DNA from: Roseovarius sp. W115
GTDB taxonomy: Bacteria > Pseudomonadota > Alphaproteobacteria > Rhodobacterales > Rhodobacteraceae
Direction of reading: 5' to 3'
Assembly (NCBI RefSeq): GCF_032842945.2
Contig: NZ_CP146606.1
Coordinates: 2,422,501-2,486,500 of the forward strand
Length of the DNA stretch: 64,000 nt
Part shown: in pieces, positions 38,430 to 43,839 of the stretch
Numbering within the stretch: the stretch's first letter is position 1
Layout: the number at the start of each line of letters is the position of its first letter
Notes under the pieces: model-generated
Told to the model about the DNA's origin: nothing
What the model saw: only the letters and a program-made list of their open reading frames with translations
The model's database searches: none
Translations under genes and position numbers: made by a program

Positions 38430-38762
38430 ATGGGAAAGACGAAGAACGGAACACGTTATCCAGAGGAACTGCGCGCCCGAGCGGTGCGGATGGTTTTGGA
38501 TCACGAGGCAGAATATGCGAGCAGATCGGCAGCAATCTTGTCGATTTCTCAGAAGGTTGGATGCAGCAGGGACAGCCTGCGCATCTGGGTCAAACAACAT
38601 GAGACAGACACGGGTAAGCGTGATGGTCTGACGACGGTTGAGAGGGAACGCATCAAGGAACTTGAACGCGAGAACCGGCAACTGCGTCAGGCCAATGAGA
38701 TCCTCAAAAAGGCATCTGCTTATTTTGCACAGGCGGAGCTCGACCGCCCATTCCGCAAATGA
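38430..38762 (+). CDS. IS3-family transposase OrfA
   Basis: A 110-residue protein with a helix-turn-helix (YPEELRARAVRMVLDH, then CSRDSLRIWVKQHE) and a C-terminal leucine-zipper-like coiled coil (ERIKELERENRQLRQANEIL). It binds the IS ends. Its stop overlaps the orfB start as ATGA, so OrfB may be made by translational coupling. A slippery C AAA AAG sequence in the ILKKAS region could also give a -1 fusion. Confidence 0.93.
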   Translation: MGKTKNGTRYPEELRARAVRMVLDHEAEYASRSAAILSISQKVGCSRDSLRIWVKQHETDTGKRDGLTTVERERIKELERENRQLRQANEILKKASAYFAQAELDRPFRK

Positions 38763-39658
38763 TTGCCTTCATCAAGGAGCACCGAAGCGTGCATGGGGTC
38801 GAGCCGATGTGCCGTGTTCTGCAGATTGCCCCGTCGACTTTCTACGAGCATCTGGCCGTTGAACGCGAACCTGACCGTGCATCGGATCGCGCCAAGCGGG
38901 ATGCGTATCTGCGCAAAGAGATGAAAGACGTTTGGGAGAAGAACAGATCAGTCTACGGCGCACGTAAACTGTGGCATGCAATGAAGCGCGAGAGGATCGA
39001 TATCGCCCGCTGCACGGTTGAACGCTTGATGCGCCAGCTTGGTATTCAAGGCGTTCGGCGGGGCAAGAAGGTCAAAACCACCTATGGTCAGCCTGCCGAT
39101 CAATGCCCACTGGACAAGGTTAATCGCCAGTTCCGGGCTGCGATGCCAAACGAGCTTTGGGTGTCCGACTTCACGTTTGTGTCCACCTGGCGGGGCTTCG
39201 TCTACGTGGGCTTTGTCATTGATACCTTCGCCAACCGGATCGTCGGCTGGAAAGCATCGACAACACAGGACACGCAGTTTGTCTTGGATGCGCTCGAACA
39301 GGCGATCCATGCGCGCAGACCTGCTGAGAAACTGATCCATCATTCAGATCGCGGATCGCAATATGTATCGATCAAGTACACAGAGCGTTTGGTCGATGCA
39401 GGATTGGAACCATCCGTCGGCAGCGTCGGCGACAGCTATGACAATGCACTGGCTGAGACAATCATCGGCCTGTTCAAAACGGAAGTCATCAACAGGCTGG
39501 GGCCATGGAAGTCCAAAGATCAGGTCGAATGGGAAACCCTGCAATGGGTCGATTGGTTCAATAGGGAACGCTTGCTCGAACCTCTCGGCTACATCACACC
39601 AATCGAAGCGGAGGAGAAATACGAACAAGCCTTGAAATCAAACAAAATCGCAGCTTGA
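38759..39658 (+). CDS. IS3-family transposase OrfB (DDE integrase)
   Basis: A 299-residue catalytic subunit with an N-terminal HTH_21 region (RSVYGARKLWHAMKRERIDI) and an rve integrase core. The catalytic triad is visible: Asp in NELWVSDFTFV, Asp in IHHSDRGSQYVS and Glu in YDNALAETIIGLFKTEV. The frame is complete, ending TPIEAEEKYEQAL before the right inverted repeat. Confidence 0.95.
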   Translation: MIAFIKEHRSVHGVEPMCRVLQIAPSTFYEHLAVEREPDRASDRAKRDAYLRKEMKDVWEKNRSVYGARKLWHAMKRERIDIARCTVERLMRQLGIQGVRRGKKVKTTYGQPADQCPLDKVNRQFRAAMPNELWVSDFTFVSTWRGFVYVGFVIDTFANRIVGWKASTTQDTQFVLDALEQAIHARRPAEKLIHHSDRGSQYVSIKYTERLVDAGLEPSVGSVGDSYDNALAETIIGLFKTEVINRLGPWKSKDQVEWETLQWVDWFNRERLLEPLGYITPIEAEEKYEQALKSNKIAA

Positions 39659-40341: not shown

Positions 40342-40887
40342 CTACAACATCAAATCCATGTCCTTCTGAAACCGTCTATCCCGATGCACGCTGGAATAGG
40401 GCCAATCCTCGGGCCGCTTGACCAATCCGTGCTTGACCGGGTTCAACCAACAATATCGGACATGCGCACGGTAATCAGCCTCATCGCGGATGTGGTGCTC
40501 CCAAAAGCGGCGTTGCCAGATGCCAACCTCGCCTTTGTCATGCCGTAGGCCGGGGTTCACCCCGGCATATCGTCCCGAAGTGACCATGGGCAAACGGGAT
40601 GGCGGGGTGAACCCCGCCCTACGAACCGACATCGTAAACCGCGCCTTGATCGCACCCCATCGCGTCGAAAAATCCGCATCTCCGGCGGGCAATGTCCAAA
40701 GCGCGTGCAGGTGATCGGGCAAGACCACCCAGGCATCAATGTGAAACGGACGCTCGGTTTTGGTTTGCCGGACAGCGGCGCGCAGCCGCGTCACCTCATC
40801 CACCAGAAGCGATCCACCACGCTGTGCCAGGGCAACGGTGAAGAACACGGTTGCCCCGGATACCCTTGGGCGGCGATAGAAGGACAT
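40342..40887 (-). CDS. REP-associated tyrosine transposase (RAYT) with an internal REP doublet
   Basis: A 181-residue Y1_Tnp-type protein. The HUH motif is HLH in WVVLPDHLHALWTLP, and the likely catalytic tyrosine is in HVRYCWLNPVKHGLV. The family stretch GEVGIWQRRFWEHHIRDEAD is intact. Between TMSVR and HDKGEVG lie about 26 residues encoded by a complete REP doublet (40545-40622) read in frame, including RAGFTPP and AGVNPGLR. RAYTs cut and mobilise REP sequences. Outside the insert the protein looks whole; whether it still works is unknown. Confidence 0.88.
   Translation of the reverse strand: MSFYRRPRVSGATVFFTVALAQRGGSLLVDEVTRLRAAVRQTKTERPFHIDAWVVLPDHLHALWTLPAGDADFSTRWGAIKARFTMSVRRAGFTPPSRLPMVTSGRYAGVNPGLRHDKGEVGIWQRRFWEHHIRDEADYRAHVRYCWLNPVKHGLVKRPEDWPYSSVHRDRRFQKDMDLML
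40545..40622. repeat. REP doublet inside the RAYT coding region
   Basis: Inverted REP units at 40545-40566 (arm GTAGGCCGGGG) and 40601-40622 (GGCGGGG and CCCCGCCCTAC arms) enclose 34 bases. Total length is 78 bp, exactly 26 codons, so the RAYT frame stays open across it. Confidence 0.88.
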
Positions 40888-41279: not shown

Positions 41280-41609
41280 GGTTTCACCCCCAGGTGTGTT
41301 GTGAGCTTTAAATATCTTGACGCACTATGCGATTGGTCCGAACCAAAATCAAACAATATGCGCCTCATTCTTGCCGTATTTTCAGCAAGGGGCGCCTTAA
41401 TCAAGGCAAAGGCCGAGTAAAATGAGCAAGGTCTGCCATCGCTGGATAGTAACTTAAAATACTGAAAATAAGTAATTTTCATCTGGCATGATGTTCAATG
41501 AATTCGTCATAGGAAACAGTTAGTTTCACAGAATTTTGTTCAATTTGCCCCAATTTCGCCGCAATGTGGCACCGGTAAGAGTAACGTCTTGTTGTGGGGA
41601 ACAAGCTTT
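41280..41609. other. Gene-poor stretch, A/T-rich
   Basis: This 330-base interval holds the upstream region of the leftward secreted-protein gene. I see no ORF with a credible start, no strong hairpin and no RNA gene. It is more A/T-rich than the flanking genes, in keeping with an accessory region. Confidence 0.55.
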
Positions 41610-41786
41610 ATGCAAGTGGACTATTTTACGATTGCCCGTCGAGGGCGTCTCAATGCGCTGAAGGCGCTTGATCGACGGCAACTTGAGTTGCCTGGTATGT
41701 CTGAGCCAACACTGTGGAAAGATGTCACGTATGAGGCATCGGAGCCTGAGTTTGATCTCGGCACTGCGCGGGCTCAAGCGGTCTGA
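41610..41786 (+). CDS. Possible small ORF followed by a terminator
   Basis: A 58-codon frame from ATG 41610 has a GGGGAA motif about eight bases upstream and encodes MQVDYFTIARRGRLNALKAL, then an acidic tail ending GTARAQAV. An intrinsic terminator lies 65 bases past its stop, which supports transcription on this strand, but the transcript could equally be a small RNA. No family recognised. Confidence 0.4.
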   Translation: MQVDYFTIARRGRLNALKALDRRQLELPGMSEPTLWKDVTYEASEPEFDLGTARAQAV

Positions 41787-41850
41787 GTATGACTATCTGA
41801 TTTCTGCCACGGCCTAATGGCCATTAACCTCCAAAGGGGCAGACCTCGTA

Positions 41851-41886
41851 GACCCGGTTCCTGCAAGGGAGCCGGGTCGCTTTTTC
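41851..41886 (+). terminator. Intrinsic terminator
   Basis: GACCCGG and CCGGGTC form a strong stem, extended by TTCC/GGGA pairing, followed by GCTTTTTC. A short GGCC-TAAT-GGCC hairpin lies just before it at 41811-41822. It marks the end of a rightward transcript starting before 41850. Confidence 0.85.
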
Positions 41887-42013
41887 ATGCTGATTCTACT
41901 TTCATCCGCGTTTTATGGCGTTTGCAGGTGCAGAAATCAGTGAGTGCACCCGGTTTTCCCGGATATTCTTCCAAAGCTCTTGCAACTGTGCCGAAACACG
42001 TCCAAATATTGAC

Positions 42014-42057
42014 TTATCCACAGAGAATTCCCACTGAATATCAACAAGTTATCCCCA
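42014..42057. other. Two DnaA-box-like motifs
   Basis: TTATCCACA (42014-42022) is a perfect DnaA box, and TTATCCCCA (42049-42057) is a one-mismatch box in the same orientation. They lie upstream of the structured-RNA region. No A/T-rich unwinding element or replication gene is near, so this is not presented as an origin. Confidence 0.45.
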
Positions 42058-42126
42058 AGAAATTTTCATGCTGCAGTGCTTTTTTCTTGCGTGAGGGCAT
42101 GGGTGTCGGTCACCTTTGAAGTGTTA

Positions 42127-42700
42127 CAGCGGTTCTTTTGAACCAATGTGACGCCGCAAAGGCCCCTCGGGACCCGCGCGGATGGAACCGGGGGTCTTCG
42201 GATTTACCGACCATCAGCACAGGTTCAGGAACGGTTCGCCGCTTCCCTCTCACCTTCGGGTGCGTTGGACATGCAGCGTTCCAATCCGGGTCGATGCAGA
42301 CGGATAGGGGCCTTGGCCTCTTTTCGTCGCCAATACTTCTTCGGAAGTTGCGGCAGCCGTATCTCGCGAGAGGTGCGGAACATCTTGGGGGTCGCAAGAT
42401 GCCTGAGGTTCCTCTGGAGCAATCCAGGGGAGGCGGAAGGCCTTTCGAGGTTGGATGCAGCTGGGTCGGAGGCCCCCTAGGGGCGGAACATCCGGTTTAA
42501 GGCGTCAGGGTGTGGCGCGGGTCGCAAGACCCAAGTCACGATGCAAGGACCGCGTCTGAGCACCTGGCGCCTTTTCTAATTCCTGAACTCTTCCGAGGTA
42601 TGGAATGCGAACGGGGTCCGTGGCTTTTGCCTTCGGACCCCGCTGTCAGTTGATGCTACCGCGTCTAACACCTGTGCGCTTTCGGTACACGGGGCAGGAG
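42127..42700 (+). ncRNA. Candidate large structured RNA, family not recognised
   Basis: About 575 nt with no credible protein gene but dense short hairpins. Examples are GGTTC-TTTT-GAACC (42131), CACC-TTCG-GGTG, ACTTC-TTCG-GAAGT, CATCTTG/CAAGATG (42381), CCTCTGGA-GCAA-TCCAGGGG, GCCCC-TA-GGGGC, GGGTC-GCAA-GACCC and CGGGGTCCG/CGGACCCCG. The loops are C(UUCG)G and GCAA only when read on the + strand, which sets the orientation. The hallmarks I know for RNase P RNA, tmRNA, SRP RNA and 6S RNA are absent. A weak promoter (TTGCGT at 42087, 17-base spacer, TCACCT at 42110) could start it. Confidence 0.5.
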
Positions 42701-42873
42701 TCGTGGTCAACCATATCTTGTGTCATTTAACGTTTTTGCCGCTGATTGTGGGTTTCAGCGCAAGTTTTTCTGTCTGCCAACGGCCAAAGCATGCGTTTCT
42801 GCGCTGGATCAAAGCCCTCTGGAGAGCCCCGTGATATTCTGCTGGCATGATGCCATCAAACTCGGAGGATATC

Positions 42874-43062
42874 ATGGGTTGGCTTGTGGTCGTGTTACAT
42901 GTCTTCATCGGATCTACAGTTGCAGGGTCGTTGGTGGTGGCCGCGCTTGTCATGGGCTATGACACCTGGGTGCAGATTTTGACGGCCGTGTTGGTCGGCT
43001 ATCTCATGGCGGCACCGGTGTCTTGGGTCATTGCAAAAAGGCTGGTTGCGCAGGACAAATAA
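42874..43062 (+). CDS. Small two-helix membrane protein
   Basis: ATG 42874 follows TCGGAGGATATC, a strong ribosome site. The 62-residue protein has two hydrophobic helices (MGWLVVVLHVFIGSTVAGSL, about 1-28, and LTAVLVGYLMAAPVSWVI, about 38-56) and a basic tail. Similar short proteins occur across Rhodobacterales, sometimes mislabelled as CTP synthetase. Function unknown. It converges with the esterase gene. Confidence 0.72.
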   Translation: MGWLVVVLHVFIGSTVAGSLVVAALVMGYDTWVQILTAVLVGYLMAAPVSWVIAKRLVAQDK

Positions 43063-43071
43063 CCGCGCGTT

Positions 43072-43839
43072 TCAACCCTTGTTGTCGAGCCACGTCCTGA
43101 CCACGGCCTCAAACTCACGTGGCTTTTCCGCGTGCAGCCAGTGCCCGGCGCCCTTGATCTTGGCGAAACTTGCGTTTGGAAACAGCGCTTTGATCTTTTC
43201 CCGATGCTCCGCCAAAACGTAGTCCGAGTCTGCACCCGAGACGAACAAGGTTGGTTTGTCAAATTGCCCCGTGACCTCTGGAAACCCTATAATCTGATCC
43301 ATGTCGCGCGCTAAAACGTCCAGGTTGAGCCACCATTTTTTCCCTTTGACATCAAGGGACTGGGTGAAAAACGATTGCAGTGTCCTGTCATCGACCAGAG
43401 CCGCGAGCTGCGCCTCTGCATCCGAACGTTTCTCTACCCGCGAGAGGTCCACCTGGCGCATGGCCTCGATATACTGAATCTGGCTATGCCCGTATCCAAC
43501 CGGTGCGATATCCGCCACAACAAGACGTTGCACCAGATCAGGGCGGCAGAGTCCCAAAACCATGGAGGCCTTACCCCCCATGGAATGCCCCAAAAGGTCG
43601 ACGGGGCCAATGCCCTCAGCCTCAATGACCTGCGCGAGATCATCTGCCATATCCTGATAGGTTTGCGTGTCATACCAGGGGCTTAATCCATGATTGCGCT
43701 GATCTACCGCCAAGACAGGTCCGCGATCAGAGAGCCGTTTGGCAATCATGCCCCAGTTGCGCGCCGAGCCATAAAGCCCGTGCACGATCAAGAGTGGCGA
43801 TGCCTGTTCTTCTGAACCATGGTGCACAATGTTCAACAT
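43072..43839 (-). CDS. Alpha/beta hydrolase (YbfF-like esterase)
   Basis: From ATG 43839 a 255-residue alpha/beta hydrolase. The oxyanion region is LLIVHGLYGSARNWG, the nucleophile serine is in DLLGHSMGGKASM, the acid lies in LFVSGADSDYV and the histidine in IKGAGHWLHAEKP. It resembles esterases of the YbfF group; the natural substrate is unknown. The longer frame to 43881 overlaps the divergent gene and lacks support. Confidence 0.9.
   Translation of the reverse strand: MLNIVHHGSEEQASPLLIVHGLYGSARNWGMIAKRLSDRGPVLAVDQRNHGLSPWYDTQTYQDMADDLAQVIEAEGIGPVDLLGHSMGGKASMVLGLCRPDLVQRLVVADIAPVGYGHSQIQYIEAMRQVDLSRVEKRSDAEAQLAALVDDRTLQSFFTQSLDVKGKKWWLNLDVLARDMDQIIGFPEVTGQFDKPTLFVSGADSDYVLAEHREKIKALFPNASFAKIKGAGHWLHAEKPREFEAVVRTWLDNKG

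Follow-up and report, generated by a model that had tools for sequence, protein, structure and literature searches.

The question raised by this locus is which gene, or genes, a stretch of dense hairpins in the genome of Roseovarius sp. W115 holds. The window, i.e. the whole 64,000-nucleotide stretch of DNA analysed here, had been read from its letters alone as containing at 42127-42700 a candidate large structured RNA of the plus strand without a recognised family. The hairpin density described in this sequence-only reading is real on our reading of the sequence, and a plus-strand RNA of that kind is supported, with both of its ends backed by covariation; of the two outcomes named there as refuting it, neither an Rfam hit nor codon-like gaps were obtained. 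The proposed extent of about 575 nt holds up to about 42578; from there on it does not, as about 42606-42700 appears to be a convergent small RNA gene of the minus strand. The locus is predicted to consist of two convergent RNA genes (Table 1), RNA A on the plus strand, untranslated and with its own promoter and terminator, and RNA B on the minus strand. With a probability of about 0.62, the two represent a hairpin-array RNA and its kissing-loop antisense regulator.

Table 1. Predicted features of the A/B locus; positions refer to the window
Feature	Position	Strand	Basis
Terminator-like hairpin of the upstream transcript	41851-41886	+	stem 41851-41878 plus T-run
DnaA-box-like site 1, TTATCCACA	42014-42022	+	sequence reading
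DnaA-box-like site 2, TATCAACA	42039-42046	+	sequence reading
DnaA-box-like site 3, TTATCCCCA	42049-42057	+	sequence reading
Putative promoter of A: T-run, -35 TTGCGT (42087-42092), -10 about TCACCT (42110-42115)	42081-42116	+	homologue alignment
RNA A, about 453 nt (5' and 3' ends as estimated from the sequence)	42126-42578	+	tetraloops, fold z, homologues, models R1 and R3
5' domain of A, made up of two hairpins that have purine internal loops	42126-42186	+	alignment A3, model R3
3' terminator domain of A	42499-42578	+	alignment A1, model R1, the window's own fold
Direct repeat copy 1 (GATGC..ACCGCGTCT..CACCTG), in A	42540-42566	+	sequence reading
RNA B, about 70 nt, in which a 5' hairpin (loop GACGCGG) precedes an intrinsic-terminator-like one	42606-42676	-	alignment A2, model R2
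Direct repeat copy 2, 5' part of B	42652-42674	-	sequence reading
Putative promoter of B: -35 TTGACC (42710-42705), 17-nt spacer, -10 TACCGA (42687-42682)	42682-42710	-	aligned loci

RNA A as a predicted gene

The C(UUCG)G and GNRA loops, from which the orientation had been deduced, are indeed strand-specific: the window carries 3 and 3 of them on the plus strand and 0 and 0 on the minus strand. In 95 non-redundant homologous loci, CUUCGG occurs 212 times on the plus and 17 times on the minus strand, and GNRA loops closed by 3 bp occur 107 and 20 times, respectively. The plus strand of 42126-42590 folds at -214.2 kcal/mol (z = -4.1 against 200 dinucleotide shuffles), compared with z = -1.9 for the minus strand. 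The judgement that no open reading frame is convincing here agrees with the gaps in the body of A, which are not codon-like: in comparison with three distinct relatives (a fourth row, L122, has the same sequence as L003), 15-18 of 19-23 gaps are not multiples of three, and the body of A therefore does not evolve as a protein gene. The terminator proposed just upstream is present as well, as a stem followed by a T-run, in a simple scan that expects 2.4 chance terminator-like sites in the stretch and is blind to the long-loop terminator of A itself. As predicted from sequence, RNA A appears to be a genuine non-coding RNA, as yet unnamed, with a length of about 450 bases, and its promoter would lie upstream of the start originally given.

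Several neighbours of the locus are worth recording. A 65-aa ORF (41589-41786, plus strand) without Pfam match lies before the upstream terminator and has relatives in L002 (88%) and L005 (49% over 43 aa). A 71-aa, apparently membrane, protein (42847-43062, plus strand), also without Pfam match, adjoins the RNA pair, is kept beside it in L002, L004, L005, L007 and L009, and is followed in the window by an alpha/beta hydrolase. Further upstream, the ORF pair of an insertion sequence (38430-39658, plus strand), presumably an IS3-type element, overlaps an ALIL pseudoknot (RF01497, 105 bits, 38717-38833), which is the only gathering-level Rfam match in the window. A 181-aa ORF without Pfam match (40342-40887, minus strand) contains a VVLPDHLHALWTLP stretch that, we assume, recalls REP-associated tyrosine transposases.

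Structure and covariation

An alignment and covariation check had been proposed for the region; pair counts across relatives support both ends of A. The 3' domain possesses a main stem of 11 bp (42499-42509 / 42563-42573) that encloses a side hairpin (42511-42540) and a terminal hairpin (42542-42562) with the loop region CCGCGTC, with a T-run at 42572-42575, and the window's own fold gives the same shape. In alignment A1 (36 sequences), 64 cells are changed on both sides of a pair, compared with 30.2 +/- 4.7 after shuffling. The terminal hairpin, UGC-RA-RGAC-CGC-GUCY-GA-GCA, hardly varies in its own pairs, which are therefore without covariation support. The family consensus of the 5' domain comprises CCGCAACGG...CCGGAGCGG and ACGCAAAGGCC...GGCCGGAGCGG, from which the window copy departs. 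The search pattern for this domain matched 48 of 95 loci, and the 25 sequences chosen for a clear match (alignment A3) contain 25 both-side-changed cells versus 10.3 +/- 2.5 shuffled, mainly in hairpin 1; the outer helix of hairpin 2 shows no both-side change.

RNA B gives 59 both-side-changed cells versus 21.0 +/- 4.3 shuffled (alignment A2, 35 sequences). In all three comparisons the shuffle control ignores relatedness, and since the alignments tested had also served to draw the structures, the slid-column control leans in favour of the latter. The models built on these alignments, each of which includes the window itself, match at 42492-42580 (R1, E 2.2e-17), at 42121-42186 (R3, E 1.4e-5) and, on the minus strand, at 42590-42677 (R2, E 2.3e-20; next-best match in the genome 0.003). 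These data support the reading of both A and B as structured RNAs.

In the consensus, the 5' end of B can form UGCAUA-GACGCGG-UAUGCA, of which the UGC/GCA part pairs in 96% of the cells and the inner two pairs in 67%. The terminator-like hairpin of B, GC-rich, corresponds to 42612-42642 on the plus strand; its tail is GTTTTC-like in many homologues and a weak GTTCGCATT in the window. The putative promoter of B reads TTGAYC-17-TA across homologues, with T at -36 in 97% and T at -14 and A at -13 in 60% each of 91 loci aligned at CAGGTG, the register of the -10 varying by 1 nt between loci.

The upstream region of A

The T-rich tract and TTGC of the putative promoter of A are conserved in homologues, including L247, L249, L250 and L288 of other families, where a TTATCCAC box upstream of the T-run is present as well. 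A generic sigma-70 scan of 41500-43100 found nothing, and the -10 of A was therefore inferred from the alignment. The three boxes upstream (42014-42057) are putative DnaA sites, an assignment we assume from the consensus. Boxes one and three, if each may differ from TTATCCACA or TTATCCCCA by no more than 1 mismatch, lie 34 or 35 bp apart in 59 of the 87 loci with enough upstream sequence; with the stricter pattern TT[AG]TCC[CA]C[AC], the pair is found in 30 of 87. Between the boxes and the -35 of A, a CATGCTGCAGTGC at 42068-42080 is conserved in many, not all, loci; it resembles what we take to be PhaR operators and would tie A to storage-polymer control.

A replication origin, considered on account of the DnaA-like boxes, was rejected on GC skew and motif polarity. 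In twenty 20-kb samples, the skew changes sign at 1.3-1.5 Mb and at 3.05-3.23 Mb, the negative-to-positive change expected of an origin being the one at 1.3-1.5 Mb; the GGGNAGGG motif, which we assume to be KOPS-like, switches strand at about 1.3-1.85 Mb and again at 3.05-3.23 Mb. dnaA is located at 1.43 Mb and the locus at 2.46 Mb, which places A 1.03 Mb from dnaA. By its position, the locus is therefore neither oriC nor terminus.

Complementarity of A and B

The direct repeats are about 110 bp apart in the window, and in 92 of 95 non-redundant loci a pattern search locates copy 2 at 93-381 nt downstream of copy 1. Copy 1 hardly varies among the aligned loci, the majority of which had been identified through the copy 1 motif. 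As the two copies are transcribed in opposite directions, the RNA of copy 2 is complementary to that of copy 1, and the loops CCGCGUC of A and GACGCGG of B are perfect complements.

Among 118 loci, no A was recognised by pattern in L032, L098 (match at the locus edge) and L167 (an actinobacterium). From 115 loci, 95 are non-redundant, 92 of these have B by pattern and 91 are long enough to align; ten of the 91 were skipped where TGC was not found on one side, which leaves 81 for the co-variation count. The base before TGC is identical in A and B, and thus Watson-Crick paired, in 76 of the 81 (20000 shuffles: mean 60.2, maximum 68) and disagrees in five; the next base outward agrees in 43 (shuffles: mean 22.6, maximum 39). 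The variants TTGC and CTGC co-occur in A and B in five and three loci, respectively. For 19 chosen loci, the duplex energies of own A-B pairs sum to -796.7, against a mean of -681.8 and a best value of -761.0 in 20000 permutations; the own pair ranks first in four of the 19 rows of the energy matrix, and that of the window 10/19, with GAG in A opposite AA in B beside the 9-bp core. These permutation tests ignore relatedness, and groups of relatives make them generous.

Individual variants point the same way. GTCC occurs in A of L039, L058, L240, L241, L242 and L245 and in B of all six, CATCTG in A of L060, L234 and L239 and in B of all three, and the ACACCGCG form in both RNAs of L227; B may also carry GTCC opposite GTCT of A, which retains G-U pairing. 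Among the 23 stretches outside the co-variation count (L170-L192), 17 of the 19 with TGC on both sides match between A and B; in L174 and L188, the two of these 19 in which A departs from ATGC, B does not match. In other families the motif differs and yet matches within a genome, with GGCTCCGC in both RNAs of L259 and L261 and GTCCGCGTC in both RNAs of L250 and L255. Most Rhodobacteraceae loci were found through the exact motif of A, so that the A loop could not vary there, and gene conversion between the direct repeats could account for part of the likeness of A and B. Loop complementarity, as expected of an antisense pair, was found with the exceptions of family f67 (see below) and L174/L188. 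That it is under selection is well supported by these comparisons.

Loci with and without B

Eighteen divergent loci allow A to be compared with and without its partner. All 12 with B (by R2) keep CCGCGTC; in the six without B (L226, L228-L231 and L238) the terminator stem is kept and the loop sequence is lost in every case. Against shuffled sequence, the A loop pairs with the downstream minus strand at z -1.8 to -5.9 in the 12 loci with B and at background level (z -1.0 to +2.1) in the six B-less loci. As A persists without B, an effector role of A, with B regulating it, is more likely than the opposite arrangement.

The f67 loci L254, L256 and L257 keep the A loop, though no B was found nearby or by R2 in the three genomes (best E 0.001), and the prediction of a B elsewhere in these genomes was not borne out; their A loop reaches z -1.6 to +0.9 against the downstream minus strand. 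R2 matches in B-less genomes (G256 1.6e-7, G094 9.2e-7, G249 0.002) were left uncounted, since inspection by eye assigned them to coding or gene-terminator sequence. A second copy of A in G597 (L288) has a DnaA-box-like promoter of its own and keeps the loop without a neighbouring B, which would fit a B that acts in trans from the first locus; in G718 and G030, the second copy of the A terminator domain (L289, L290) has lost the loop.

Distribution

By blastn, homologues 68-69% identical over most of A occur in two related genomes, and one 97% identical in a third (G008:C1). Of 394 family genomes, 55 contain the region at E <= 0.001, with the upstream element and the 3' end as the blocks most often matched. 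Model R1 matches in 61 of 394 family genomes (61 of 393 genera), one each; L232 and L233 were read as false among 20 fetched loci, mainly the weaker ones, so that at most 59 of the 61 stand. The genome searches score part of the first-look candidates with strict filters, and absences are therefore soft. A genome-wide pattern scan yielded 103 stretches, of which 80 (L090-L169) enter the main counts and 23 (L170-L192) were read separately, with A by pattern in 22 of the 23 and B in 21 of those 22. The 80 are mostly Rhodobacterales, with Roseovarius, Ruegeria, Shimia, Marivita, Boseongicola and Defluviimonas among them; an uncultured Roseovarius (L145) is the window's closest relative among the stretches listed.

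In the class, R1 matches in 26 of 385 genomes, 23 of them outside the family of the window; 16 of these 23 loci were inspected, the weakest matches not among them. L247-L250 and L255 possess A plus a downstream B by R2, L252 does so weakly (E 0.017), and in L251 and L253 a downstream B was identified by reading. L259-L261 contain A plus a diverged B by reading, which R2 backs in L261 (2.3e-6) and not in L259, the R2 match in L260 overlapping A itself. The genes next to the pair vary: rpsB adjoins L255, a phosphomethylpyrimidine-kinase family gene adjoins L259-L261, and DUF1223 adjoins L247. The A/B pair is therefore not part of one conserved operon. Just beyond the pair in L250, of an f65 genome, lies the Rfam rpsB sRNA (RF01815, 939-1061, minus strand, 40.5 bits with a cut-off of 40).

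Alternative explanations

A reversed division of labour, in which B is a working regulator of trans-encoded mRNAs and A the sponge that traps it by its terminal loop, is possible, if rather doubtful. A near-invariant 5' part is typical of trans-acting sRNAs and is found in B, and the loop of the second A copy in G597, kept without an adjoining B, would suit a B that acts in trans. Against a sponge, 6 of 18 divergent loci retain A in the absence of B, with just the loop lost, and A has one B site besides many other hairpins. A search of the own genome with CCGCGTCTNNNCACCT at <=1 mismatch gave 8 sites (4+4), the one exact site being A, and the reversed control 4+4; the sites being no more numerous than in the control, no further strong target is visible. 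It is improbable that the repeats and boxes represent a DNA element (a DnaA titration or replication site, or protein operators) in which the hairpins are incidental: compensatory changes in RNA helices and strand-specific tetraloops speak against it, as does a position that is neither oriC nor terminus by skew and GGGNAGGG polarity, although the direct repeats and the DnaA-box-like pair at a constant 34-35 bp would fit such an element.

Still less credible is a type I toxin-antitoxin system, with a small toxic peptide encoded by A and B as the antitoxin RNA. Its geometry would be the same, i.e. convergent genes with direct repeats that confer trans-complementarity. A scan of the plus strand for mini-ORFs (15-70 aa, 14-residue window, first start codon of each open stretch only) detected a hydrophobic one in just 6 of 95 loci, of which only those of L156 and L162 resemble each other; A has gaps that are not codon-like and, in L248, 67-nt repeat units. 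A type I system and, more generally, a coding function were rejected on the mini-ORF scan and the gap pattern. The size and structure density of A might finally suggest a highly diverged known large RNA (RNase P, tmRNA, 6S) or a curated Rfam family, for which we see next to no room. The A/B region of the window and eight related loci (L002-L009) lack any gathering-score Rfam match, and a relaxed scan of 41800-42900 returned nothing better than E 5.6; Rfam 15 has no family for A or B in the window, in these eight loci or in 11 loci from other families. An identity of A with RNase P RNA, tmRNA or 6S RNA, already discounted in the sequence-only reading, is refuted: on contig C1, tmRNA maps to 3358624 and RNase P to 2781493, both above cut-off, and a 6S candidate (40.7 bits, below the 46.4-bit cut-off) was likewise found away from the locus, at 647719.

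The hairpin array and the proposed function

The body of A varies between lineages. In L252 it is a tandem array of a 33-nt hairpin, present in 10.5 copies and bearing GGAA on either side of an internal loop; in L248 it contains about 7.8 copies of a 67-nt unit, and in L247 and L288 the whole of A shrinks to about 150 nt. Hairpin modules with purine loops number 104 in the Rhodobacteraceae loci, compared with 19-29 in 8 shuffled sets and with 2 on the minus strand, and CGGAAC occurs there 62 times versus 13 +/- 3.4. In A of the window, the module finder marks only two purine-loop hairpins, one of which is the terminal hairpin. The variable array suggests a protein decoy, and A is perhaps a hairpin-array RNA that acts as decoy for an RNA-binding protein. 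CsrA (PF02599) was detected in 0 of 21 genomes, with E. coli, B. subtilis and T. maritima positive among 14 controls; a CsrA sponge was rejected on its absence from the 21 genomes searched.

Under the preferred reading of a hairpin-array RNA with a kissing-loop antisense regulator, the loops CCGCGUC (A) and GACGCGG (B) would kiss over 7 bp, and pairing would then extend to roughly 20-25 bp. The extended duplex would open the terminator stem of A, B being able to cover parts of both arms, and the opened A would be exposed to RNases, by which B would set the level of A. With lesser weight, A may bind an RNA-binding protein through hairpins with purine (GGAA-type) internal loops, and its promoter may be tied to DnaA. 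The complete scheme, i.e. a DnaA-responsive promoter of A, titration of an RNA-binding protein via the variable GGAA-loop hairpins and a reset by the kissing-loop antisense B, is speculative and, as a whole, rather unlikely.

Relation to known systems

RNAs of the CsrB/RsmZ type titrate proteins by repeated hairpins with a GGA motif in their apical loops. Like these, A has many hairpins with a repeated GGA-containing purine motif and a module number that varies by lineage; unlike them, it bears the motif in internal, not apical, loops and has a dedicated antisense partner, and CsrA was not found in the 21 genomes searched. The par system (RNA I / RNA II) of pAD1 is a convergent pair with oppositely transcribed direct repeats and an involved terminator region. 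A/B resembles it in its convergent genes, in direct repeats that make the RNAs trans-complementary and in the involvement of the terminator region, but no conserved peptide was seen in A, and A/B is chromosomal and present in several alphaproteobacterial families.

According to the accessible text of PMC5089854, PMC8307010 and PMC11354728, UpsM of Rhodobacter sphaeroides is a structured RNA with a terminator, a Rhodobacteraceae feature formed by the mraZ leader, and is targeted by StsR; as far as that text goes, A/B would be a similar combination of a structured, terminator-bearing RNA and a small RNA that targets it. An identity of A with UpsM was rejected, with no mraZ beside A, and one of B with StsR as well, B being without the complement of the probe GGACAGTGAAGGTAGAACGG given in the available part of PMC11354728 (compared by eye). 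CcnA of Caulobacter crescentus, in the accessible text of PMC8959179, is 182 nt long, lies at the replication origin and holds DnaA boxes in its gene. On that description it is, like A, an alphaproteobacterial non-coding RNA with DnaA boxes (DnaA-box-like ones for A) at the gene, whereas A is separated from dnaA by 1.03 Mb and lies a long way from the skew switch. In Ruegeria pomeroyi DSS-3, the available text of PMC4809877 lists trans-sRNAs of 311-488 nt (trans38, trans45, trans63, trans79 and trans98), among which the counterpart of A may be present as an anonymous transcript; pairing with a small convergent RNA is not described in that part of the study. No description of the A/B pair was found in searches of the open-access literature, supplements excepted, or in the accessible text of PMC8307010, PMC5089854, PMC4809877, PMC11354728, PMC8959179 and PMC5107571.

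Significance

RNA A would be a large RNA that is absent from the Rfam release used and present in several alphaproteobacterial families. The six divergent loci without B, all of them without the loop sequence, provide a natural experiment on the pair. The variable hairpin array may point to a novel RNA-binding protein in bacteria where CsrA was not found. If A is fired by DnaA and reset by B, the pair would link the state of replication to a post-transcriptional regulon.
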